From the NCBI GenBank assembly GCA_017538965.1, contig JAFYHU010000029.1:62001-126000 (forward strand): DNA of 64,000 bases, given 5' to 3'. This DNA is from Oscillospiraceae bacterium (GTDB taxonomy: Bacteria > Bacillota > Clostridia > Oscillospirales > Oscillospiraceae). The translations under genes and the position numbers were made by a program. Numbering within the stretch: the stretch's first letter is position 1; every line of letters begins with the position of its first letter. Shown in pieces: positions 32,963 to 47,663 of this stretch. The notes under the pieces were generated by a model, which was not told the origin of the DNA, ran no database searches, and was given only the letters and a program-made list of their open reading frames with translations.

Positions 32963-33552
32963 ATGTTTATGATTTTGACTATACCGTCTTCACCCCGGAC
33001 AGCTCGGCCTGCTTTCTCCGCTTCTGCCTTCGGCATCACACGCGTGCGGTGCTGAAAGCACTGCTGTTCTCCGCGGACGAAGCAATCCGCTATCTGGCGA
33101 CGGGAAAAAAAGACGCAAAGCGGCTGAAGGAAGCGCTCTTCTCCTTCCTGAACCGGGTGGACAATATCGAGGCGATCGTCGATGAGTTCTGGGAATGCCA
33201 TATTGACCATCTGCAATCCTGGTATCTGGAACAGAAGCAGCCGGACGATCTGATCATCTCCGCTTCCCCCGAGTTTCTGCTCCGGCCGATCACCGATCGT
33301 CTCGGCGTTACTCTGATGGCAACCCGGATGAACCCCTGGACCGGACAGATTAAAGGGAAGAACTGCCACGACGAGGAAAAAGTCCGCCGCTTCCTGGAAG
33401 TCTACCCGGCGGACAGCGTCGATCGCTTTTATTCCGACTCTCTCTGCGACATCCCGATGGCCAGAATGGCGGATGAGGCCTTTCTCGTAGTGAACGGCCG
33501 CGTCTTCCCCTGGCCGATCAATGGTTCAAAAAAAACAAAACCGTCTCCCTGA
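32959..33552 (+). CDS. HAD-superfamily (IB-like) phosphatase
   Basis: 197 residues with the HAD nucleophile motif D-F-D-Y-T (D5, D7), motif II Ser in 'IISASPEF', motif III Lys in 'HDEEKVRRF', and motif IV 'SDSLCDIPMARMAD'. A helical cap lies between (about 20-95). Substrate is unknown; the IB group includes phosphoserine and lipid head-group phosphatases. ATG 32959 overlaps the upstream stop (ATGA). The terminator hairpin begins inside its last codons. Confidence 0.82.
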   Translation: MNVYDFDYTVFTPDSSACFLRFCLRHHTRAVLKALLFSADEAIRYLATGKKDAKRLKEALFSFLNRVDNIEAIVDEFWECHIDHLQSWYLEQKQPDDLIISASPEFLLRPITDRLGVTLMATRMNPWTGQIKGKNCHDEEKVRRFLEVYPADSVDRFYSDSLCDIPMARMADEAFLVVNGRVFPWPINGSKKTKPSP

Positions 33553-33579
33553 GATCAAGCGTCAGGGGAGACGGTTTTT
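33537..33579 (+). terminator. Terminator overlapping the HAD gene end
   Basis: CCGTCTCCCTGA pairs with TCAGGGGAGACGG (one bulge), flanked by an A-run and a T-run. The stop codon TGA (33550-33552) lies in the left arm. Confidence 0.85.
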
Positions 33580-33602: not shown

Positions 33603-33631
33603 TTGAATTCATGGGGAAAGCGTTGTAAAAT
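33603..33631 (+). promoter_or_regulatory. Promoter of the binding-protein/HD-GYP cassette
   Basis: TTGAAT (33603-33608), 17-base spacer, TAAAAT (33626-33631). The first gene starts at 33681 with GGAGG upstream. Confidence 0.75.
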
Positions 33632-33680
33632 ATAAGATCAGGAAAGAAAGCCGATTTCTGTTCCCGGAGGCAATACAGAT

Positions 33681-34625
33681 ATGATCAAACAGAGGAATCT
33701 TCTGGCCTCTCTGGCCAAAATGTTTGCCGGCATGGCGGTTGGCATTGCCATTCTCGGCGCTCTCCCTGCCTTCGCGGCAGCGGAAGAGCCTTCTCCCTAT
33801 CTGGAGAATGAGTGGAACTTTGTGGACGTTTCCATGGATGTATCGAAGGGAATTCCGGATGATGCTACGGGGCGGCTGGCAAAAATCCGCAGCTCCGGCA
33901 AACTGACAGTGGCGACATCGCCCTATTATCCTCCGCAGGAATTTATCGACGAATCTCTGAGCGGGAACGATTCCTATATCGGAGCGGATATGGACTTGGC
34001 GCGCCTGATTGCCCAACGCATGGGGGTGGAACTGGAGATCGTACCTATGAGCTTCGCCGACGTTCTCTCCTCCGTTGCCAACGGCAATTACGACCTGGCG
34101 GTTTCCGCCCTGTCCTTTACCTCGAGTCGGGCGGCGGTTCTGGAAATGTCCAAAGGCTATTATTACTCCGGGGAACAGGCTTCCAGCGGTCTGATTATTC
34201 GGGAAGAAGACGCCGAAGACATCCGCACGGAGGAAGATCTGGCAAAGCGCGATATTGTTGCGCAGAGCGGTTCCCTGCAGGAAACCATGGCTGCCGATCA
34301 TATCACTTCCTATCATAAATTCCGCAGACTGTCTTCTGCCGAAGACGTCTATGATGCCGTCAGAACGGGGAAAGCCGATGCCGGCGTGGTGGATATCAGC
34401 ATCGCGCAGGTATATATCGACAACCATCCGGACTGCGGTCTGACCATCGTTCCGGATGTGGCCTTTGCCCTGAAACCACAGTTTACGGGCGATCGGATCG
34501 CCGCCACGAAGGGTGAGATCGAACTGATCGCTTTCGTCAACGGCGTGATTGACGAAGTCCTGGAATCCGGACAGTACGAAGAGTGGTTTGAGACCTATGC
34601 CGAATTCGGCAGTGCGCAAAGCTGA
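33681..34625 (+). CDS. Family-3 extracellular solute-binding protein (amino-acid type)
   Basis: A signal peptide (about 1-33, ending A-F-A-A-A) is followed by a family-3 binding fold: 'SGKLTVATSPYYPPQEF', 'GADMDLARLIAQRMGVELEIVPMSF', 'LSSVANGNYDLAVSAL', and 'GKADAGVVDISIAQVYI'. The signal region has no lipobox Cys, so the protein looks exported and free rather than a lipoprotein. No permease or ATPase gene follows; the next gene is a membrane HD-GYP sensor. It may deliver a ligand signal rather than feed a transporter. The 314-residue length is normal. Confidence 0.85.
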   Translation: MIKQRNLLASLAKMFAGMAVGIAILGALPAFAAAEEPSPYLENEWNFVDVSMDVSKGIPDDATGRLAKIRSSGKLTVATSPYYPPQEFIDESLSGNDSYIGADMDLARLIAQRMGVELEIVPMSFADVLSSVANGNYDLAVSALSFTSSRAAVLEMSKGYYYSGEQASSGLIIREEDAEDIRTEEDLAKRDIVAQSGSLQETMAADHITSYHKFRRLSSAEDVYDAVRTGKADAGVVDISIAQVYIDNHPDCGLTIVPDVAFALKPQFTGDRIAATKGEIELIAFVNGVIDEVLESGQYEEWFETYAEFGSAQS

Positions 34626-34663
34626 GGCATGGAAGCGCAGGATCTGAGAGGAGGCCGGAAGAA

Positions 34664-37600
34664 ATGAAAAATTGGAAAACCTGGCGTATCGTGTCCTTTG
34701 TCGCGATGTGCGTTTGCCTGAACATATTCGGAAGGCTCATGGCCCAGTGGCTGGAACTCCCCCTGTGGGCCGACTCCTTCGGCACCGCGCTCTGCGCATA
34801 TATCGCCGGTCCTGTATGCGGCGCGATGGTGGGCCTGACGGGAAATCTGGCATACAGCACGGTCAATCATCTTTCGGCGGCTTATTCCGTTACCAGTGTT
34901 GCGCTCGGCATCATCATCGGGATTGCGGCACACCGGAACTGGTTTGATCAGTTTTACGGCTTCATGAAAGCGGCAACGCTGGCTGTGCTTGTGGCCCTGA
35001 TTGTGTCCGTCCCGCTGAATCTGATCTTCGCCGGTGGGTATACCGGCAATATATGGGGCAACGGCGTGGTGGATTATCTCCTGGAGAAGGAGTGGCCGCC
35101 CTTTATATGCAGCGTGATGGGCCAGCTGGCAATCGAGTTTGCCGACAAGGTGCTGACCATCGGCGCTGTGTATCTGGTAATCCTGGTCCGGGGCTGGTGG
35201 AGCAGAAGCGATGACAATGATGCCAAGCCGCAGCACGGCGGTGCGGCGGTGGCATCGATTCTGGTTCTGTGTCTCCTGTCAGGTCTGGCTGCGCCTGCCC
35301 GTGCCGAGGACGGTGCCGCGGCAGAAACTACGGACTATAATGACTATGTCCAGAGCGTTTACAGCAGCAGCAACGGCCTCCCCTGCGGCGAAGCCAATGA
35401 CATCGCCCAGACCAATGACGGTGTCCTCTGGATCGGCACTTACGCCGGTCTGTATCGCTATAACGGCCGTGAGTTTCGCTGGGTGGATAATTATGAATCC
35501 GTTCGAAACGTGAACTGTCTCTACGTGGATGAGGAAGGCCGTCTCTGGATCGGCACCAATGACAACGGGCTGGCGATCGTGATCCGCGAAAAGGTTGTGA
35601 ATGTGCTGGATCAGTCCAGCGGCCTGCCTTCCAATTCCGTACGCTGCGTCATCCGTGCCACGGACGGGTATTACTATGTCGGCACCACCGGCAGCATGCA
35701 GATGCTGATTATGAACAACGGCCTGAAGGTCGCCAACACCCTGCCGGAGGTCAACTATGCCGACAGCATCAGCGCCGACCGCAAAGGCAACGTGGCGGCG
35801 ATCGCCTCCGGCGGACGGCTTTTCCTGATGAACAGAGGACTGGTGCTCTGCTCTCTGCAGCTGACGGACGGGCAGGAACTGTTCAACTGCTGCGCTTTCG
35901 CGCCGGACGGTACCCTGATGGCAGGCTCTTCCACCAATCATATATACCGCTATGATATTTCCGACGGTGATTTTTCCCTTCTCGACGTCATGACCTGTGA
36001 GGGCGTCGCGAGCATCAACAATCTGAACTATCTGAGCGACGGCACCCTGTTCATCTCCACCGACAGCGGCGTATCCTATGTGGATACGGACGGTTATCAT
36101 AAGATCAACACCAACGATTTCAACAACTCCATCGACAACATGCTCTATGACTATCAGGGCAATCTCTGGTTCACGTCCTCAAGACTCGGCCTGCTGCGGC
36201 TGGCCAAATCCGCTTTCCGGGACGTTTACGGTGCCGTCGGCATGGAGCGCCGTGTTGTCAACGCGATTGTCAAATGGCAGGGCTGCTATTATATCGGTAC
36301 CGACAAAGGCCTGGACGTGGTGGACGGAGGATGCCGTGAACAGATCCGGAACGACCTGACCGAGACGCTGAACGGCAAGCGCATCCGCTGCATGTATGTG
36401 GATGAAGACAATCATCTCTGGGTGTGCACCTATGGCAGCGGCCTGATGGAATTTGCACCGAACGGAAACTCCTGGCTTTACAATTCCGACAGCGGCAGCT
36501 TCGGCAACCGCGCCCGCATCGTGACGGGACTTTCGGACGGAACGATCCTGGCAGCGGGCGATACCGGCATCAGCTTTATCCGGGATCATGAGATTCAGCA
36601 GACCATCCGCAACGAGGACGGCCTGATTAACTCCATGATCCTGACCGTGACCGAACGCGGTGACGGAACAATTCTGGCAGGTACGGACGGTGACGGCATT
36701 GCCGTGCTGAAGGACGGCAAGGTACAGGAAATGCTGACCCGTGAGGACGGTCTCAGCAGCGGCGTCATCCTGCGCACCGTGAAAGACCCGAAGTCCGAAG
36801 GCGTCTTTATCGTCACCAGCAACAGCCTGTGCTATATGGAACCGGAAGGCAGCATCCATGTGCTGGATAAATTTCCTTACTTCAACAACTATGATATCTG
36901 GGTCAAGGACGAGGATACGCTCTTCGTCATGTCCAGCGCCGGCATCTATGTCGTGGAGCGCGATGAGCTGGTGGCAGGCGGAGAAATGGCTTGGGAACTG
37001 CTGGATGCACGAAGAGGCCTGGGGACTTCTCTGACCGCCAATTCCTGGAACTGGTATGACGGAAACGGGGAACTGTTCCTGCCCTGCGACACGGGCGTTT
37101 ATATCATCGATGTCGATAAATACAATACCGGGGTCCGCTCCTATCGCATGCAGCTGGCTTCCGTCCGCCTGGACGGCGTGCTGCAGCCGCTCGACCGCAC
37201 GGAGGCTATAACGGTCGGCCGGGGCGTCAACCGGGTGGAACTGGCGCCGGAGATTCTGAACTATACCATTCAGGAACCCAACGTAGGCTATATCCTCGAG
37301 GGCTATGATGCCCAATGGACGATCATTCCGCAGAGCAGCCTCAGCAACATCATTTATCACAATCTCCCTGCGGGTGATTATACCTTCCGTCTGGCTGTTT
37401 TCGACAGTGCAGGCGAGCGTGTCCTGGAGGAGCGCAAGTTTGATCTGGTCAAGACAGGCGAGATTTACGAACAGCCGGGATTCCTCTTCTACATGCTGAT
37501 GCTTCTCTCCCTGATGATTGTCTGGTTCACCTGGTTTGTGGTGCAGAGACAGCTGAACCAGCAGAGAATCAAGCTGAATATGGCCAATGAGACCGTCATG

Positions 37601-38314
37601 GCCATTGCCAACGCGGTCGACGCAAGAGACGTCCGCACCCACCAGCACTCCATGCGTGTGGCGGAATATTCCGTGCTGATCGCGCAGGAAATGGACTGCT
37701 TCAAGGGGTGGCAGAAGAACAAAATGCTCTCCAACCTCCGGAAAGCCGCCCAGATGCATGACATCGGCAAGATCGGCATCCGGGACAGCGTTCTGAACAA
37801 GGTCGGACGCCTGAATGATGAAGAATATGCCGAAATGAAATCCCATGTGGAGCGCGGCGCCGATATCCTGAAAGACTTTACGCTGGTCGAACACGTTGTG
37901 GACGGCACACGCTATCATCATGAACGCTACGACGGCCGCGGATATCCGGACGGCCTGAAAGGAGAGGAAATCCCGCTCTTCGGCCGGATCATCGGCGTAG
38001 CCGACGCCTTCGACGCCATGACTTCCAACCGCGTTTACCGCAACCATATGGATACGGATTATGTCATGAACGAAATGAAGCGCGGGCGGGGTACCCAGTT
38101 CGATCCGGAAGCGCTGGATGCTTTCTTCCGTCTGATCGACAAGGGCGTGATCAACCTGGATGAGATCTATGCCCAGAAACGTGCCGAGATTCAGAGCGCG
38201 GATCAGAAGGCACAGGATGAACTGAGGCGCCGCGTGGAAGAAGACAAAAAGATTCAGGCTGCGGAGATGCAGAACAAAGACAAGGGTGATTCCGCGGATG
38301 AGAAAGGGGAGTAA
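34664..38314 (+). CDS. ECF-S-like membrane domain, beta-propeller, Y_Y_Y-like domain and HD-GYP phosphodiesterase in one protein
   Basis: 1216 residues. Residues 1-185 form five or six helices with an ECF-transporter S-component look ('GPVCGAMVGLTGNLAYS'). A further helix at about 188-210 leads outside. Residues about 225-800 hold repeated 'DGVLWIGTYAGLYRYNG' and 'EGRLWIGTNDNGLAIV' blades of the Reg_prop type. About 835-930 looks like a Y_Y_Y domain, with a helix at 938-962 and a coiled coil. The HD-GYP domain (about 985-1160) is complete: M-H-D-I-G-K near 1030 and H-H-E-R-Y-D-G-R-G-Y-P near 1085. It should hydrolyse c-di-GMP in response to an outside signal. The tail is charged and helical. 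It lies between two binding-protein genes. Confidence 0.85.
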   Translation: MKNWKTWRIVSFVAMCVCLNIFGRLMAQWLELPLWADSFGTALCAYIAGPVCGAMVGLTGNLAYSTVNHLSAAYSVTSVALGIIIGIAAHRNWFDQFYGFMKAATLAVLVALIVSVPLNLIFAGGYTGNIWGNGVVDYLLEKEWPPFICSVMGQLAIEFADKVLTIGAVYLVILVRGWWSRSDDNDAKPQHGGAAVASILVLCLLSGLAAPARAEDGAAAETTDYNDYVQSVYSSSNGLPCGEANDIAQTNDGVLWIGTYAGLYRYNGREFRWVDNYESVRNVNCLYVDEEGRLWIGTNDNGLAIVIREKVVNVLDQSSGLPSNSVRCVIRATDGYYYVGTTGSMQMLIMNNGLKVANTLPEVNYADSISADRKGNVAAIASGGRLFLMNRGLVLCSLQLTDGQELFNCCAFAPDGTLMAGSSTNHIYRYDISDGDFSLLDVMTCEGVASINNLNYLSDGTLFISTDSGVSYVDTDGYHKINTNDFNNSIDNMLYDYQGNLWFTSSRLGLLRLAKSAFRDVYGAVGMERRVVNAIVKWQGCYYIGTDKGLDVVDGGCREQIRNDLTETLNGKRIRCMYVDEDNHLWVCTYGSGLMEFAPNGNSWLYNSDSGSFGNRARIVTGLSDGTILAAGDTGISFIRDHEIQQTIRNEDGLINSMILTVTERGDGTILAGTDGDGIAVLKDGKVQEMLTREDGLSSGVILRTVKDPKSEGVFIVTSNSLCYMEPEGSIHVLDKFPYFNNYDIWVKDEDTLFVMSSAGIYVVERDELVAGGEMAWELLDARRGLGTSLTANSWNWYDGNGELFLPCDTGVYIIDVDKYNTGVRSYRMQLASVRLDGVLQPLDRTEAITVGRGVNRVELAPEILNYTIQEPNVGYILEGYDAQWTIIPQSSLSNIIYHNLPAGDYTFRLAVFDSAGERVLEERKFDLVKTGEIYEQPGFLFYMLMLLSLMIVWFTWFVVQRQLNQQRIKLNMANETVMAIANAVDARDVRTHQHSMRVAEYSVLIAQEMDCFKGWQKNKMLSNLRKAAQMHDIGKIGIRDSVLNKVGRLNDEEYAEMKSHVERGADILKDFTLVEHVVDGTRYHHERYDGRGYPDGLKGEEIPLFGRIIGVADAFDAMTSNRVYRNHMDTDYVMNEMKRGRGTQFDPEALDAFFRLIDKGVINLDEIYAQKRAEIQSADQKAQDELRRRVEEDKKIQAAEMQNKDKGDSADEKGE

Positions 38315-38317
38315 GGG

Positions 38318-39514
38318 ATGAAGCGGGTTTATATGATCACGGCGATGACCTGCGTGGTCATGCTGGCTGCGATTGTCGGCATTTTCCGGCTGCTGGACCC
38401 TTCCGGCGGACGCGACGGCTTGACCGTCGGTTTCGTCTATGACAACGATGAAAGCACGCCCTATACCTACAACTTCTCCCTGGCAAAGGTCGCGGTGGAA
38501 AAACAGTACGGAGACCGCGTGAAGATCTTCACCTGCAGCAACGTGCTGGATGACAAAATGGAAGATCCGATCCGGGAACTGGCCGCGAAAGGCTGCGATA
38601 TCATCTTCTTCAACGGCTACAGCGAGCTGGTGATGGAGCTTGCCCCGGAATACCCGGACATCCAGTTCTGTCAGACCTCCTATATGGATATGAGCGGCGT
38701 AACCGTTCCGGACAATTACCACAGCTTTAAGGGCGAAGCCTACCAGGGCCGCTATGTAAGCGGGATTGCGGCAGGCTGGAAGATCAAGCAGATGATTGCG
38801 GACGGGATCATATCGGAAGACCAGGCTCTTGTAGGCTTTGTAGCGGCCTTTCCCACTTCGGAAGTCATTTCCGGCTATACGGCCTTCCTGCTGGGGGTTC
38901 GCTCGGTGGTTCCGCAGGCTGTGATGCAGGTCTGCTACACGGAAACCTGGAGCAGCTATGCCCTGGAGAAAAGCGCTGCGCAGAAGCTGATTGACAACGG
39001 CTGTGTCATCATTTCCCAGCACACCGACACCATCGGTCCGGCGATCGCCTGTGAAGAAGCTTCCCAGAAGGGCGGTGTCTTTTTCGTCGGCTACAACCAG
39101 AGCATGTCGGAGGTTGCCCCCGGCGCTTCCTTGGTTACTTCCCGGATCTGCTGGGACCCCTATGTGCTCAAAGCCGTGGATGCCGTCATGTCGGATAAGA
39201 AGATCGAATCGAACATCTTCGGCCGTATTCACGGAAACGATGTCTCCGCCGGCTTCGGACAGGGCTGGGTCGAGATGGACGATCTGAACCTGCAGGTTGC
39301 GGCACCCGGAACCCAGGAAGCCATGGACAGCGCCATCGAGCAGTTTAAGCGCGGAACCGTCGACTTTGTCTTCCGCGGCGATTATATCGGCGTGGATCCC
39401 GGCGATCCGTCCGATACCATCGATCTGCGGAACGGATACATAGAAAACCAGTACACCTCCTATCCGCTGTTTCACTATATTCTTACAGACATCATCAGCA
39501 TCATCCCCCTGTGA
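38318..39514 (+). CDS. BMP-family (PnrA/Med-like) substrate-binding protein
   Basis: The 398-residue protein has an N-terminal hydrophobic segment (about 5-25) that looks like a membrane anchor, without a lipobox Cys. A BMP-type periplasmic fold follows: 'TVGFVYDNDESTPYTYNFS', 'AAKGCDIIFFNGY', 'EAYQGRYVSGIAAG', 'LVGFVAAFPTSEVISGYTAFLLG', 'GCVIISQHTDT'. Relatives bind nucleosides or other small molecules for ABC uptake. No transporter genes are adjacent; it starts 3 bases after the HD-GYP sensor, with AAGGGGAG as ribosome site in that gene's end. A sensory role is the simplest reading. Confidence 0.85.
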   Translation: MKRVYMITAMTCVVMLAAIVGIFRLLDPSGGRDGLTVGFVYDNDESTPYTYNFSLAKVAVEKQYGDRVKIFTCSNVLDDKMEDPIRELAAKGCDIIFFNGYSELVMELAPEYPDIQFCQTSYMDMSGVTVPDNYHSFKGEAYQGRYVSGIAAGWKIKQMIADGIISEDQALVGFVAAFPTSEVISGYTAFLLGVRSVVPQAVMQVCYTETWSSYALEKSAAQKLIDNGCVIISQHTDTIGPAIACEEASQKGGVFFVGYNQSMSEVAPGASLVTSRICWDPYVLKAVDAVMSDKKIESNIFGRIHGNDVSAGFGQGWVEMDDLNLQVAAPGTQEAMDSAIEQFKRGTVDFVFRGDYIGVDPGDPSDTIDLRNGYIENQYTSYPLFHYILTDIISIIPL

Positions 39515-39517
39515 GCT

Positions 39518-39553
39518 AAGTTGTCAAGGGGACGCTTCTCCTGACAACTTTTT
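39518..39553 (+). terminator. Terminator ending the HD-GYP cassette
   Basis: AAGTTGTCA and TGACAACTT with GGGGA/TCTCC inside form a long stem, followed by TTT. It starts 4 bases after the BMP stop. Confidence 0.8.
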
Positions 39554-41566: not shown

Positions 41567-42508
41567 ATGACGGGATACATCATAAAACGCATCATAGTAG
41601 CGATTCTGACACTTTTAGTGATCATGACCGTTACGTTCCTACTGATGAATGCCATTCCGGGCAGTCCGTTCCTCACGGAGAAGTCGACGCCCGAGATGAT
41701 CGCCAGGGCGAATGCGAAGTACGGGCTGGATAAGCCGCTTTACGTTCAACTGTGGAATTATATCAAGAGTTATCTGAAAGGGGACCTCGGCACCTCACTG
41801 AAGATGCAGGAGGGGACGCCGGTGTCCACGATCATCTTCCATCAGGGCAAATTTGAGCTCTCGCTCAAGCTGGGGCTCTACGCGCTGCTCCTGGCGGTGG
41901 TCCTGGGCATCCCGCTCGGTTGTATCGCCGCATACAACAGAGGGACATGGATTGACGGCTTCCTGCGCGTCGTCACGACGGTCGGCGTTGCAATTCCGAC
42001 TTTTGTGCTGGCAACCCTGCTGCTGGTCACCTTCGCGGTCAAGCTGCAGTGGCTGCCGACTGTGAGCGGCAGTCTGACGACCTGGAAGGCCTATGTCATG
42101 CCGGTGATTAGCTTATCCTTCTATTACCTGTGCTATGTGGCCAAGCTGACGCGGACCAGCATGCTGGACGCGATCAACCAGGATTATATCCGCACGGCCC
42201 GCGCGAAGGGCGTGAAAACGAGAAGCGTGATTCTTAAACACGCGCTCCGTAATTCTCTGATCCCGGTCATCACCTACCTCGGGCCGGTCATGGCGGGCAT
42301 TATCACGGGCAGCTTTGTCGTTGAGTCGACATTCTCGATTCCGGGGCTCGGCAAGTACTTCGTGCAGAGCGTGCTGAACCGCGACTATCCGGTCATCATG
42401 GCGACGACAGTGGTCCTCTCGGCCCTGGTCATCATCATGAACCTCGTGGTTGATATCGCCTACAAGATCGTCGACCCGCGGATTACGCTGACGTCGAAGG
42501 AGGCCTGA
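41567..42508 (+). CDS. oppB: Oligopeptide ABC transporter permease OppB
   Basis: 313 residues with six expected helices and an N-terminal 'KRIIVAILTLLVIMTVTFLL' segment. The permease loop 'RTARAKGVKTRSVILKHALRNSLIPVITYLG' is the ATPase-contact (EAA) region. It is the first gene of oppBCDF-A; the ribosome site is weak (AGGCGGG). Peptide specificity cannot be told from sequence; other dipeptide systems (DppB) look alike. Confidence 0.9.
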   Translation: MTGYIIKRIIVAILTLLVIMTVTFLLMNAIPGSPFLTEKSTPEMIARANAKYGLDKPLYVQLWNYIKSYLKGDLGTSLKMQEGTPVSTIIFHQGKFELSLKLGLYALLLAVVLGIPLGCIAAYNRGTWIDGFLRVVTTVGVAIPTFVLATLLLVTFAVKLQWLPTVSGSLTTWKAYVMPVISLSFYYLCYVAKLTRTSMLDAINQDYIRTARAKGVKTRSVILKHALRNSLIPVITYLGPVMAGIITGSFVVESTFSIPGLGKYFVQSVLNRDYPVIMATTVVLSALVIIMNLVVDIAYKIVDPRITLTSKEA

Positions 42509-42511
42509 GCG

Positions 42512-43876
42512 ATGGACGGAAAGTTTGCAAAGATCAGTCCGTTTCAGGTCGATCCCGACAAAATCCCGCAGAACTTCGATCTGAATGAGGAAGACTTTAT
42601 GCCGGCGGAGGAAGCCGAAAAGGCGTCCATGGTGGAAAAGCACAAGAGCGTGTCTTACTGGAAGGATGCCTGGAGGCGCTTTCGGAAGAACACGGTCTCG
42701 ATGGTGGCGCTTGCCATCTTCCTTGTCTGCCTGCTGTTTGCGTTTCTGGGGCCGAAGTTGATCCCTTACAGCTACGGGGACCAGTACCGCTCGTCGCAGA
42801 AACTGGGCCCCATGGAGTACTCCGAAAACGAACAGACTGCCCTGTCGATCGCGGACAGCTGTGACGGCTTTTTTGCGACAAGCCTGCAGCCGGGAAGCAT
42901 GAACGCCATTAAAAAAGGCGACTACTATGTCCAGCACGGGGGAAAGACCTACGCCTTCACCCTGAAAAAAGCCGTGGAGAAAAGCATCCTGATCCTGAAG
43001 GCCGATGCAGAGCCCGCTCTGTTCGTCGTGAAGGAAAAGGATATCAAAGACGGCCAGTACGAGAAGATTCAGGAGCTGGAACTCACCGACACGCCGGTGG
43101 AGGGCGCGAAAGAAATCAAGCTGGTCAAGACGGTTTTTCCGCATGTGTTCGGAACCGATTCCGCAGGCCGTGACATCATGGCCCGGACCATGTACGGCGC
43201 CCGTGTCTCGATCCTGATCGGCATCGTTGCCGCGCTGATCGTGCTGGTGATCGGCTCCATCTATGGGGCCATCTCGGGCCTTGCGGGCGGCGCGGTCGAC
43301 TTTGTGATGATGCGGATTGTGGAGCTGATCTACTCCATTCCAGAAGTCCTGATTGTGCTGCTGCTGCAGGTTGTTCTGAAAGACCCGCTGCAGGCTTGGT
43401 TCGATTCGGGCACTTCGGCCTTTGCGCAGGCCATGGGCGACCTTGGTTCGGGCATCGTCAGCATCTTCATCACCTTTGCTCTGCTGTACTGGGTCACCAT
43501 GGCGCGTATCGTCCGCGGCCAGGTGCTGCAGCTGAAGAAGCAGGAATATGTCACCGCGGCGACGGCGCTGGGCGCGTCGAACGGCCGGATCATCCGCCGC
43601 CATCTGCTGCCCAACTGCGTGGGCGCGCTGGTGATCACCACCTGCCTGCAGATTCCCAGCGCGATCTTTCTCGAATCCTTCCTTTCGTTCCTCGGCCTCG
43701 GCGTCTCGGCGCCGATGGCAAGCCTGGGCTCGCTGTGCTCGGATGCGCTGGAGACCATCTCGCTGTATCCCTACCGGCTGGTTTTCCCGGGAGTCATTCT
43801 GACGGTCATTGTTCTGACGCTGAACCTTGTCGGTGACGGCCTGCGGGATGCGCTCGATCCCCGTCTGAAGAAGTAA
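42512..43876 (+). CDS. oppC: Oligopeptide ABC transporter permease OppC with enlarged outside loop
   Basis: The 454 residues exceed the usual 300 or so. A 60-residue cytoplasmic N-terminus leads to the first helix (about 65-87). Then about 125 residues (88-213) form an outside domain not found in short OppC. The remainder is standard: 'HVFGTDSAGRDIMARTMYGARVSI', EAA loop 'YVTAATALGASNGRIIRRHLLPN', and 'FLSFLGLGVSAP'. The inserted domain could contact the binding protein. Starts 3 bases after oppB. Confidence 0.9.
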   Translation: MDGKFAKISPFQVDPDKIPQNFDLNEEDFMPAEEAEKASMVEKHKSVSYWKDAWRRFRKNTVSMVALAIFLVCLLFAFLGPKLIPYSYGDQYRSSQKLGPMEYSENEQTALSIADSCDGFFATSLQPGSMNAIKKGDYYVQHGGKTYAFTLKKAVEKSILILKADAEPALFVVKEKDIKDGQYEKIQELELTDTPVEGAKEIKLVKTVFPHVFGTDSAGRDIMARTMYGARVSILIGIVAALIVLVIGSIYGAISGLAGGAVDFVMMRIVELIYSIPEVLIVLLLQVVLKDPLQAWFDSGTSAFAQAMGDLGSGIVSIFITFALLYWVTMARIVRGQVLQLKKQEYVTAATALGASNGRIIRRHLLPNCVGALVITTCLQIPSAIFLESFLSFLGLGVSAPMASLGSLCSDALETISLYPYRLVFPGVILTVIVLTLNLVGDGLRDALDPRLKK

Positions 43877-43892
43877 GGGAGGAGACAGGAAC

Positions 43893-44919
43893 ATGGAAGA
43901 GAACAGAAAACTTCTGGAAGTCAAGGATCTGAAAGTTTCCTTCTTTACGCCCGCGGGGGAAGTGAAGGCCGTCAACGGCATTTCCTATTCGCTGGGCTAT
44001 AACGAGGTCATGGGCATCGTCGGCGAATCCGGTTCCGGCAAAAGCGTTGAGGCCTATTCGATTATCGGCCTGCTGCAGAGCCCGGGCAAGGTGACTGGGG
44101 GCAGCATCCTCTTCGAAGGTGAAAACGTACTGGAATACGATGCGGAGAAGATGCGCCAGTTCCGCGGGAACAAGGTCAGCATGATTTTCCAGAACCCGAT
44201 GACTTGCCTGAACCCGGTCTACACCATCGGAAACCAGCTGATGGAAGCGCTGACCTGCCACGACAAAAGCATCAGCAAAGAACAGGCAAAGGCGCGCGCG
44301 ATTCAGATGCTTGAACTTGTCGGCATCAACAACGCCGCCAAGCGGGTCGACCAGTATCCGCATGAGTTTTCGGGCGGCATGCGCCAGCGCGCGATGATCG
44401 CGATGGCGCTGATCTGCGAGCCGAAGCTGCTGATTGCGGACGAACCGACCACGGCGCTGGACGTGACGATCCAGGCCCAGATCCTCGAACTGATGAAGGA
44501 TCTGCAGAAAAAGGAAAACACCTCGATCATCTTCATCACGCACAACCTCGGCGTCGTCGCCGAGATCTGCGACAGAGTGTCGGTGATGTACGCCGGGCAT
44601 ATCGTGGAGCAGGGTCTGGTACAGGATATCTTCTATCGCCCCCAGCATCCCTATACCAAAGGCCTGATCGCCTCGACGCCGCGTCTGGACGAAGAGGATC
44701 AGGAGCGGCTGGTGCCGATCGAGGGCACGCCGATCGACCTGCTGAACCCGCCAAAGGGCTGTAACTTCGGACCGCGCTGCAAGAACTGCATGAAAATCTG
44801 CCTGCGCGAGAAACCGCCCTATGCCGACCTCGGCGAGGGGCATATCTCGGCCTGCTGGCTGCATTTCATGAAGCAGAAGAGCGGGAAAACGGCTTTGGCA
44901 GGGAAGGAGAATGCAGCCA

Positions 44920-44927
<8 letters not shown>
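43893..44927 (+). CDS. oppD: Oligopeptide ABC transporter ATPase OppD
   Basis: 344 residues: Walker [10 protein letters not shown]-loop '[10 protein letters not shown]', signature '[11 protein letters not shown]', Walker B '[13 protein letters not shown]', switch His in 'ITHNLG'. The C-terminal oligopeptide-type extension has the conserved cysteines ([14 protein letters not shown]) seen in OppD/DppD, possibly an FeS site. It overlaps oppF by 8 bases. Confidence 0.95.
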
Positions 44928-45912
<985 letters not shown>

Positions 45913-45986
45913 AACGCCCCAATTTGGTATTTCGTCCCAAAGGGACTGAATACATATATCTATCTTATCCGAACAGGAGGAAAAAC

Positions 45987-47663
45987 ATGAAGAAGACATT
46001 GGCAATGCTCATCGCGCTTTGCATGGTGTTCTCTATGGTTTTCACGGCCTCTGCTTTTGCGGATGAGCCGTTCGTAGTGAACGCCTGCATCGCCTCGGAA
46101 CCGGAGACGATCGACCCCGGTCTGATCAGCTCGGTTGACGGTTCCACCTATACCCAGCATCAGTTTGAAAACCTGATGAAGTATCAGATGGTCGACGACC
46201 TCGCGGCCGACGATCCCAACATGCACAATACCGAAGTCGTCCTGGGACAGGCGGCGTCCTATGAGGTCTCCGACGACATGTGCGTCTATACCTTCACCCT
46301 GCGTGACGACATCTTCTGGTCCGACGGCGAGCCCGTCAAGGCCCAGGACTTCGTCTACAGCTGGCAGAGACTGGTCGATCCGGAAACTGCTTCCGACTAC
46401 GGCTACTTCCTGGACAACATCGTTCTGAACGCCGCTGCCATCCAAGCCGGTGAGAAGGACAAGAGCGAGCTCGGCATCGAGGCCGTCGATGACAAGACCC
46501 TCGTGATCACCCTTGAAGCCCCCTGCGCCTACTTCCTCGAGATTTGCGCCTTCGCCTCCCTGATGCCTCTGCGTGAGGACGTCGTGGAAGGCAATGACGA
46601 CTGGACCGATCCCGAGAACATCGTTGTCAACGGCCCCTACAAGGTCGTCGAGTGGGTCCACGACAGCTACATCCGCATGGAGCCCAACAAGTATTACTAT
46701 GACGTCGACAACCTTGGCCCCGACGCCATCGTGTGGTGGCTGAGCGACAGCCAGACCGCGATCATCTCGGGCTATCAGTCCGGCGAGTACAGCTTCGTCG
46801 AAGACTTCCCGACCGACCTGATCGAAAGCCTGGTTGAGTCCGGCGACTGCTTTGTCAACCCTTATGTCGGCACCTACTATCTGTATCTGAACTGCGACAA
46901 GATTCCCGACTGGCGTGTCCGCGCCGCGATGACCCTCGCGGTGGACCGTGAGAACATCGTCGAGAACGTGACCCAGGGAGGTCAGGTGCCTGCCACCGGT
47001 TTTGTCGCCTCCGGAATTCTGGATTCCGAGGGCAACGACTTCGCCTCCGGCGTATCGGATCTTGGTGCGCTGTACAACACCCTGCAGGAGATGTATCCCG
47101 ACGCGGATCTCGAGACCTATTCCGGCAAGTGCGAGCTTGCTCAGGAACTGTATGCCGAGGCCGTTGAAGAGGGCGCCTGGGATCCCAGCACCACGGTTGT
47201 CTACAACTTCAACACCTCCGATACCCACAAGGCCATCGCAGAAGCCTGCGGCGCTGACTGGAAGTCGGTCCTGGATATGGACATCACCCTCGAGAATCAG
47301 GAGTGGGCCACCTACACCAACGGCCTCGGCGAGCACAAGTTCGGCGTTGCTCGTCTCGGCTGGATCGCCGACTATAACGACCCCGTCACCTATCTCGAGC
47401 TGATGGTCACTGACGGCTCCTACAACTACGGCCTGTACTCCAATGAGAGCTTCGACGAGGCGATCGCCGAGGCCAAGGCCACACTGGCCGGCCCGGACCG
47501 TGACGAGCTGCTCTACAGCGCGGAAGAGACCCTCTTCGGCGAAGGCGGCTTCCCTGTCTGCCCGATCTATTACTATACCAGCATATACTGCATGAACGGC
47601 CTTACGAATGTTGCCTTTACTGGCATGGGCTACTACTTCTTCTGGTATGCTCAGCAAGTTTGA
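45987..47663 (+). CDS. oppA: Oligopeptide-binding protein OppA (family 5)
   Basis: 558 residues: signal peptide (about 1-25, cut site near A-S-A-F-A), then a family-5 fold: 'ASEPETIDPGL', 'YTFTLRDDIFWSDGEPVKAQDFVYSWQRL', 'NGPYKVVEWVHDSYI'. There is no lipobox Cys, so it seems to be released or held otherwise, unusual for a Gram-positive binding protein. AGGAGG precedes the ATG. It lies last, 74 bases after oppF, and ends at a strong GC hairpin. Confidence 0.93.
   Translation: MKKTLAMLIALCMVFSMVFTASAFADEPFVVNACIASEPETIDPGLISSVDGSTYTQHQFENLMKYQMVDDLAADDPNMHNTEVVLGQAASYEVSDDMCVYTFTLRDDIFWSDGEPVKAQDFVYSWQRLVDPETASDYGYFLDNIVLNAAAIQAGEKDKSELGIEAVDDKTLVITLEAPCAYFLEICAFASLMPLREDVVEGNDDWTDPENIVVNGPYKVVEWVHDSYIRMEPNKYYYDVDNLGPDAIVWWLSDSQTAIISGYQSGEYSFVEDFPTDLIESLVESGDCFVNPYVGTYYLYLNCDKIPDWRVRAAMTLAVDRENIVENVTQGGQVPATGFVASGILDSEGNDFASGVSDLGALYNTLQEMYPDADLETYSGKCELAQELYAEAVEEGAWDPSTTVVYNFNTSDTHKAIAEACGADWKSVLDMDITLENQEWATYTNGLGEHKFGVARLGWIADYNDPVTYLELMVTDGSYNYGLYSNESFDEAIAEAKATLAGPDRDELLYSAEETLFGEGGFPVCPIYYYTSIYCMNGLTNVAFTGMGYYFFWYAQQV

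Follow-up and report, generated by a model that had tools for sequence, protein, structure and literature searches.

A conserved gene cassette of a BMP-family binding protein and an ECF-S, propeller and HD-GYP sensor in mostly Bacillota bacteria

The cassette described here, found in the window (the whole stretch of 64,000 nucleotides that was analysed), is a real and widespread module in mostly Bacillota bacteria. A gene for a large membrane sensor is followed by one for a BMP-family binding protein (BMP), and a family-3 binding protein (SBP3) joins them in one part of the sensor tree. BMP forms the core of the cassette together with the sensor, as it is nearly always kept, and SBP3, which most relatives lack, is optional. 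We favour, with moderate confidence, the reading that BMP is a dedicated ligand receptor controlling the HD-GYP output of the sensor, SBP3 acting as an extra input of amino-acid type.

The open reading frames placed three tandem genes of the + strand between two terminator-like hairpins: SBP3 (33681-34625, 314 aa, family-3, amino-acid type), the sensor (34664-38314, 1216 aa) and BMP (38318-39514, 398 aa), which starts 3 nt past the sensor stop. Pfam recovered SBP_bac_3 (1.8e-24) in the first, Reg_prop (7.7e-24), Y_Y_Y (6.5e-8) and HD_5 (4e-33) in the second and Bmp (1.6e-23) in the third, with no ABC permease or ATPase inside the three-gene unit. The gene content, the spacing and the lack of transporter genes given by the sequence-only reading were thus confirmed. 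An Opp-type operon, distinct from the cassette and equipped with a family-5 binding protein of its own, begins 2 kb downstream, at 41567. The upstream border is a terminator-like hairpin with a T-run (about 33537-33578, + strand; -24.8 kcal/mol, z -4.52, 0/200 shuffles equally good) that ends the preceding HAD gene, and a second hairpin with a T-run (39518-39550, + strand; -17.1 kcal/mol, 2/200 shuffles equally good) closes the cassette; a simple terminator scan reported neither. The same reading had proposed one promoter and one terminator. The downstream hairpin (z -3.21) upholds the terminator, but the promoter, a weak TTGAAT-17-TAAAAT site at 33603-33631 (+ strand), is a candidate only, because it matches the consensus at 9/12 positions and the number of promoter-like sites in the region (7 observed, 4.2 expected) does not clearly exceed chance. 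An Rfam search of the window gave no match.

The sensor, all of whose features lie on the + strand, starts with a CD3073-like ECF-S domain (34694-35182, residues 11-173) with about five hydrophobic stretches by hydropathy. An extra membrane helix (35231-35305, residues 190-214, hydropathy) presumably leads out to an extracellular Reg_prop beta-propeller region (35309-37243, roughly residues 216-860, both ends being estimates). The Y_Y_Y domain (37289-37420, residues 876-919), a return helix to the cytoplasm (37472-37549, residues 937-962, hydropathy) and the HD-GYP phosphodiesterase domain (37607-38110, residues 982-1149) follow. The complete HD-GYP motifs behind a propeller noted from the sequence were borne out by the motif residues and by the Pfam order: the HD, HH and GY residues occur in 76/76 full-length sensors and the P of GYP in 73 of them. 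The propeller matches 4a2l and 3v9f, structures of hybrid two-component system (HTCS) sensors, a family known from Bacteroides. HTCS and cassette sensors share a Reg_prop propeller and Y_Y_Y, from which a single membrane helix leads to the signalling domain, whereas the cassette sensor has no HisKA, HATPase or receiver match in Pfam, carries HD-GYP instead, and adds the N-terminal ECF-S domain and a dedicated binding protein.

The pairing of sensor and BMP is strongly conserved. Of the 80 best among 519 loci from a genome scan with the sensor as query, which is silent on sensors without the ECF-S N-terminus, 69 have BMP directly behind the sensor gene and 11 lie on contigs that end before BMP could appear; in one of these (L121), the final 144 nt resemble the beginning of a BMP gene. 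The prospect, raised by the sequence-only reading, that homologues would mostly be found without the binding proteins is therefore not borne out for BMP. The reciprocal search, starting from the BMP subfamily (E <= 1e-95), found it in 19/250 genomes, with the end of a sensor gene just upstream in 18 and a contig end in the remaining one; 16 of these loci are new, and three (L204, L205 and L206) are the scan loci L106, L107 and L073 again, the last of which comes from the Butyrivibrio strain NC2007. A search of 321 genomes starting from the ECF-S domain gave two sensors outside G000, each followed by BMP, one of them new (G958) and the other (G910) the same gene as G755 of the BMP-first search; the CD3073 family also matched, below the cut-off, in 2/14 control genomes. 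A chance cluster is excluded by the conserved gene order across the scan and BMP-first loci.

Among the loci compared, BMP linkage occurs only with the complete ECF-S, propeller and HD-GYP architecture. Neither BMP nor SBP3 was matched at 14 loci around propeller proteins lacking ECF-S (9 with an HD-GYP match; L047, L048, L049, L051 and L052 have none in the DNA examined, some loci being short), at 6 loci around ECF-S-HD-GYP proteins lacking a propeller, or at L295, where ECF-S and propeller are on two separate kinases. The divergent sensor L040 (36% identity, about 36-38% in the HD part) has no BMP on its 6.8-kb contig. Conserved adjacency could nevertheless stem from shared regulation rather than contact, the sensor and binding proteins answering the same nutrient while the propeller, like that of HTCS sensors, senses polysaccharide and BMP and SBP3 feed distant permeases. 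Binding proteins can serve distant permeases, operons for BMP transporters occur commonly in this bacterial order and the propeller is of HTCS type, all of which speak for this explanation, but we regard it as unlikely: the restriction of BMP to one sensor architecture counts against it, and so does the 4-nt overlap of the sensor and BMP genes in 49/72 measured pairs, the Treponema locus included.

The BMP proteins themselves also differ from those of transporters, which again argues against shared regulation alone. The window BMP has an N-terminal hydrophobic anchor without a lipobox; the lipobox is absent from 55/66 cassette BMPs and present in 28/28 transporter-like ones. Cassette BMPs form one clade, lying on one side of a branch with an SH-aLRT of 100, and carry a C-terminal stretch past the Bmp match. 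The transporter-like BMPs seen here are typically lipoproteins encoded next to BPD_transp_2 permeases and an ATPase, as Pfam recovered at the control locus L168; the cassette shows no such arrangement. Of 10 transporter-like BMP loci viewed, 8 showed permease or ATPase genes on inspection by eye, in a set that is the best-scoring part of the search and in which only L168 was checked with Pfam; a crude ORF caller revealed none at L166 and L172. Likewise, 9/12 outside SBP3 loci are beside a permease by eye (L245, L247 and L248 are not; L244 and L249 only were checked with Pfam). The possibility that such binding proteins mostly sit beside ABC permeases therefore held for most of their nearest outside kin viewed and failed for the cassette clades.

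A remnant ABC operon is ruled out, as the cassette has no permease or ATPase and its flanks are variable, with one exception, scan locus L058, where ABC-transporter-like genes and binding proteins lie 154 nt upstream on the same strand (by eye). Among 86 loci, no transporter family recurs at a fixed flank position, another point against shared regulation, and no further gene keeps a constant position that would make it a fourth member of the cassette. The largest two clusters of flanking genes (24/86 and 14/86 loci, at various distances, the next comprising 5 loci) are single-linkage superfamilies that correspond by eye to GGDEF/receiver/HD signalling proteins and to ABC ATPases.

The cassette BMP combines the Bmp fold family with purine-sandwich residues, as do the purine-binding AtzT and 3s99. 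In the window BMP, the purine-type pocket residues are Y49, E182, W211, H235 and D237, conserved in 80-86 of 87 cassette rows (including 4 repeats of a gene). They align with Tyr45, Glu165, Trp194, Asn218 and Asn220, which PMC6834077 names for guanine-bound AtzT; Ser97 of AtzT has no clear counterpart. In 3s99, in which adenine was modelled, the E, W, H and D are identical in the alignment. The cassette BMP differs from both by its membrane anchor, its C-terminal extra stretch and the absence of an ABC partner in the unit. From these residues we infer a probable ligand of the purine-base type, or some related heterocycle, although the same pocket is seen in transporter BMPs and would not by itself fix the ligand.

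SBP3 shows a different distribution. It is present in 22 of the best 80 of 519 scan loci, absent from 54 where the contig continues, and cannot be judged in the remaining 4, so that the prospect of homologues without binding proteins is realised in part for this partner. Sensors of Lachnospiraceae are among those that lack it. When missing upstream, SBP3 is not encoded elsewhere: no orthologue was found in 17/17 genomes checked, in which the best matches have at most 34% identity (E 1.8e-24 or weaker), four of the genomes having no match at 1e-10. On the FastTree sensor tree, which gave a long-branch warning at L039, L040 and L163 and has 4 rows without an SBP3 label as their contig starts too near upstream, SBP3 presence needs two changes; because the root is a midpoint, SBP3 may have been gained once and lost once, or lost twice. 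Within the protein, a hydrophobic signal region lies within residues 6-36 and is followed by an N-terminal extension (33798-33857, + strand, residues 40-59), where Y40, N43, N46, M52, D53, G57, I58 and P59 are invariant (22/22 cassette SBP3 proteins). This motif was found only in cassette copies among the loci compared, a cassette-rich sample. R150 (22/22) and D238 (19/22) are the conserved Arg and Asp of what we take to be an amino-acid site. We also looked at sensor sites relaxed where SBP3 is missing (17, of which 6 are in residues 361-500 and 6 in HD), and set them aside as a hint of an interface since they had no significance test.

The ECF-S-like N-terminus proposed from the sequence was recovered by NCBIfam ECF_S_CD3073 (E 3.8e-16, 59 bits over residues 11-173) and in 61/61 sensor relatives scanned, the window sensor scoring 59-64 bits against a curated cut-off of 180 bits; a profile search of this region against PDB sequences gave no match at E up to 1. 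The domain may hold a small ligand in the membrane and is a candidate for this role. Its sequence kin, the CD3073-family ECF S components, stand alone (about 180-200 aa), whereas that of the sensor is fused. Stand-alone CD3073 proteins adjoin a putative CD3072 TudS-related desulfidase in 6/7 loci viewed, and the sensor unit has no desulfidase. The match throughout the relatives, the single EcfT/CbiQ family match of the genome and the occurrence of stand-alone CD3073 proteins in Clostridia would fit a split importer or transceptor, in which the ECF-S domain works with shared EcfT/EcfA, BMP feeds it, and the propeller and HD-GYP report transport or occupancy. This seems improbable to us given the score far below the cut-off and the absence of any EcfT gene seen within cassettes; moreover, to our knowledge, known S components bind their substrate without a binding protein.

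Closer in logic is NspS-MbaA of Vibrio cholerae, in which, according to PMC8967002, the ligand state of a periplasmic binding protein sets the activity of a membrane c-di-GMP enzyme; a system of Sinorhizobium meliloti is named elsewhere in the literature. In the cassette too, L058 excepted, the gene for the binding protein accompanies that of the enzyme and has no transporter genes of its own alongside. NspS is polyamine-binding and MbaA is a GGDEF-EAL protein, whereas the cassette comprises BMP, SBP3 and an ECF-S, propeller and HD-GYP sensor. By analogy, the cassette would work like NspS-MbaA from unrelated parts, but it is not NspS-MbaA because HD-GYP, Bmp and SBP_bac_3 replace GGDEF-EAL and the polyamine-type protein. 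We found no description of the three-part combination in openly licensed PMC literature.

The output is most likely the hydrolysis of c-di-GMP, the presumed substrate. The top PDB match of the HD-GYP domain is 5z7c, a 3'3'-cGAMP phosphodiesterase (E 1.7e-37), closely followed by 4mcw (E 5.3e-37), and for this reason the substrate may differ from c-di-GMP. We give a low probability to an enzyme that acts on a different cyclic dinucleotide, for example 3'3'-cGAMP, or has a regulatory instead of a catalytic role, considering the 45 GGDEF matches in the window's genome and the HD, HH and GY residues kept in every full-length sensor. A c-di-GMP-I riboswitch search of the same genome gave no match, and its controls likewise gave none.

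In the mechanism that we favour, BMP, a membrane-helix-anchored relative of ABC binding proteins, would capture a small ligand outside the cell and then dock on the outer side of the sensor, at its propeller, its ECF-S domain or both. This contact would alter how the propeller/Y_Y_Y stalk and the helix after it are packed, and this change would shift the activity of the cytoplasmic HD-GYP domain; both the binding of BMP to the sensor and the direction of the effect are inferences. Where present, SBP3 would feed a further signal, of amino-acid type, into this sensor. The view of the sequence-only reading, in which ligand-loaded binding proteins would act through the propeller and the membrane part on c-di-GMP hydrolysis, is partly supported. 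An extended version, which we consider doubtful, is a three-input receptor in which a nucleobase-like signal from BMP, an amino-acid-like one from SBP3 and a membrane-bound ligand passed by BMP to the ECF-S domain would converge on one c-di-GMP-degrading output; we know of no earlier case of a binding protein delivering its ligand to an ECF-S fold. If true, it would be a nutrient 'AND gate' of gut Clostridia.

Little is generally known about the inputs of c-di-GMP enzymes, particularly in anaerobic Clostridia of the gut. As likely receptors are encoded here beside the enzyme, ligand screening of BMP and SBP3, whose outer parts should be purifiable, could name the signal. It seems that a transporter-type binding protein was recruited as a dedicated subunit of the sensor, joined in part of the tree by a second such protein, and the fusion suggests that ECF-S domains may serve as input modules in signalling. 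Judging from sequence comparisons, gut bacteria would here link the sensing of nutrients to their behaviour in a way that appears to be new.

ORF reading and domain matches recovered the three tandem genes described in the sequence-only reading: a family-3 binding protein (SBP3, 33681-34625), the sensor (34664-38314) and a BMP-family binding protein (38318-39514). One terminator-like hairpin lies at the end of the preceding gene (~33537-33578) and another at the cassette end (~39518-39550); the promoter call is weak. The sensor comprises an ECF-S-like region (residues 11-173), an additional helix (190-214), a Reg_prop propeller between this helix and a Y_Y_Y domain (876-919), another helix (937-962) and an HD-GYP domain (982-1149). 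Judged from hydropathy and domain knowledge, this layout implies that the propeller, BMP and SBP3 are outside the cell and HD-GYP inside. The window also holds an ordinary Opp/Dpp-type operon (41567-47663) with two permeases, two ATPases and a family-5 binding protein.

Scanning a single genome of each species with the N-terminal part of the sensor yielded at least 519 related stretches. The 80 most like the sensor were retained; their record titles are mainly those of Lachnospiraceae or other Clostridia, with one from Treponema. Among these best 80 of at least 519, the three-gene order held for its sensor-BMP part, BMP directly following the sensor in 69 loci (68 by ORF reading and L093 by tblastn), but SBP3 was present in just 22, being absent in 54 despite remaining contig and not judgeable in 4. 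In the other 11 loci the contig stops before the sensor end or at most 144 nt past it; in L121 the final 144 nt after the sensor resemble a BMP start. The 72 spacings measured included 49 overlaps of 4 nt and 11 gaps of 3 nt. Sensor and BMP also occurred together beyond the scan, in genomes G129, G491, G542 (sensor reading frame broken), G910 and G958 and in a second cassette of G573; the sole sensor with no BMP beside it, in G016, is 36% identical, with a more divergent HD domain. Two loci (L093, L164) combine a broken sensor frame with an intact BMP frame, which may reflect assembly errors or decay. At L058 (2747-7846), a run of genes on the sensor's strand stops 154 nt 5' of it; by eye they resemble genes for two binding proteins, an ABC ATPase and a permease.

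The BMP alignment was also run against 250 genomes of the family of the Butyrivibrio NC2007 locus (L073). At E <= 1e-95 the subfamily was found in 19 genomes (weakest E = 7.3e-142), 3 repeating scan loci and 16 new; the C-terminal part of a sensor lay immediately 5' of BMP in 18, and in the 19th BMP is at the contig start. A BMP match at E <= 1e-40 was present in 161 of 394 genomes from the order to which the window belongs; the source genome, G491 and G542 scored 3.7e-160 or better and the rest 2.7e-84 or weaker. By eye, ABC permease or ATPase genes were near 8 of ten inspected loci of the weaker set; at L168, a transporter-like BMP locus, a Pfam check gave BPD_transp_2 permeases and an ATPase.

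Among the loci compared, BMP pairing tracked the full ECF-S, propeller and HD-GYP architecture. No BMP or SBP3 match was obtained around 14 propeller proteins without ECF-S (L012, L013, L041-L052; HD-GYP match in 9 of the 14 loci) or around six ECF-S-HD-GYP proteins without propeller (L014, L296-L300), some loci of both sets being short. A propeller match at E <= 1e-30 was obtained in 17 of the 200 genomes from the window's family, but just 3, source genome included, had a match extending to the N-terminus. The window's contig also encodes a 716-aa CD3073-like ECF-S and HD-GYP protein (L014:4907-7081; G000:C17:32.9-35.1 kb), in which no propeller match was found. At L295 (2235-10414), three genes in a row encode a hybrid histidine kinase whose N-terminus is CD3073-like, a receiver protein, and a hybrid kinase with Reg_prop; the input domains resemble those of the cassette sensor, but the outputs are kinases and the domains are split over two proteins.

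No SBP3 orthologue was found elsewhere in any of 17 genomes lacking it upstream. Across the 72 labelled rows of the sensor tree its presence required two changes, versus a shuffled mean of 19.5. If the root is placed within the outer rows that lack SBP3, the two changes would be a gain ahead of a 71-row clade and a loss in a clade of 48 rows, mostly Lachnospiraceae; a history of two losses is equally short. An N-terminal extension in which Y40, N43, N46, M52, D53, G57, I58 and P59 are invariant is present in all 22 copies longer than 280 aa. Among the collected loci, a cassette-rich sample, this motif occurred in cassette copies only (30 matches in 2.27 Mb, many counting a gene more than once where loci overlap). 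Of 341 genomes of the class, only the source genome itself had the subfamily at E <= 1e-50. R150 is present in 22/22 copies and D238 in 19/22, consistent with an amino-acid site. The closest kin outside cassettes gave 12 matches in 7 of 150 genomes searched, 9 of them adjoined by a permease (by eye). Two of these loci (L249:2852-6951, L244:5287-8372) have both a permease and an M20-family hydrolase next to the binding protein, and L249 has an ATPase too; the ligands may accordingly be conjugated amino acids or peptides. The source genome has a second binding-protein/c-di-GMP-enzyme neighbourhood on contig C26 (L015:5043-10436), where a family-3 binding protein lies beside a dCache-HD-GYP-GGDEF protein and a Na/Pi cotransporter.

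A branch with SH-aLRT 100 set the cassette BMPs apart from the other rows (70 versus 20 after thinning). A lipobox was found in all 28 extracted transporter-like BMPs. In 11 of 66 cassette BMPs a cysteine close to the hydrophobic stretch fits a loose lipobox pattern; the remaining 55 have no lipobox. The nearest solved structures were AtzT (6pi5, 8e-27) and 3s99 (5.5e-26). The AtzT report describes guanine sandwiched between Tyr45 and Trp194, with contacts from Asn218, Asn220, Glu165, Ser97 and the Phe98 backbone (PMC6834077). In our alignment, Tyr45, Glu165, Trp194, Asn218 and Asn220 correspond to Y49, E182, W211, H235 and D237, conserved in 84, 86, 85, 80 and 83 of 87 cassette rows (including 4 repeats of a gene); the same five residues are kept in 28/28 transporter-like rows, and Ser97 and Phe98 align to a two-residue gap. 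Because these guanine-pocket residues are conserved, in a pocket common to transporter BMPs, the cassette BMP ligand is likely purine-type.

All 61 sensor N-termini scanned matched ECF_S_CD3073 (best E 1.5e-24), with weak matches to 5TM-5TMR_LYT in 28 and ECF_trnsprt in 26. This family was found in 45 of 321 genomes of the class at E <= 1e-12, with 9 above the cut-off, in open frames of ~180-240 aa (stand-alone), ~570-760 aa and at least 1050 aa; the four medium-size proteins tested (L014, L296, L297, L298) contain HD-GYP. Six of seven stand-alone loci viewed (L286, L287, L289-L292) adjoin CD3072 TudS-related putative desulfidases, all six tested as such, which suggests a thio-heterocycle ligand for CD3073 S components. 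TudS enzymes are described as desulfurating 2- and 4-thiouracil (PMC10611767). We speculate that the ECF-S ligand is nucleobase-like, which would match the BMP pocket. At L288 (5759-11922), ~0.9 kb separates a stand-alone CD3073 S component from a BMP-type protein, after which come genes resembling ABC permeases and an ATPase (by eye).

All 76 full-length sensors keep the HD, HH and GY motifs and the VADAFDA aspartates unchanged. In the PDB, a 3'3'-cGAMP phosphodiesterase and 4mcw gave the closest chains, so the HD-GYP domain may act on a cyclic dinucleotide other than c-di-GMP. The source genome probably uses c-di-GMP, since it has 45 GGDEF matches, a number that seems high for 3.4 Mb. The best-supported reading is that the cassette would be a receptor pair acting like NspS-MbaA, where a membrane c-di-GMP enzyme is controlled by whether a periplasmic binding protein carries its ligand (PMC8967002). 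The protein families differ on both sides, so that the cassette is not a member of that system; nor is it an HTCS, as its sensor has no kinase. No description of this combination was found in openly licensed PMC papers. The most fitting description of the cassette is a novel form of binding-protein-coupled signalling, putatively through c-di-GMP.
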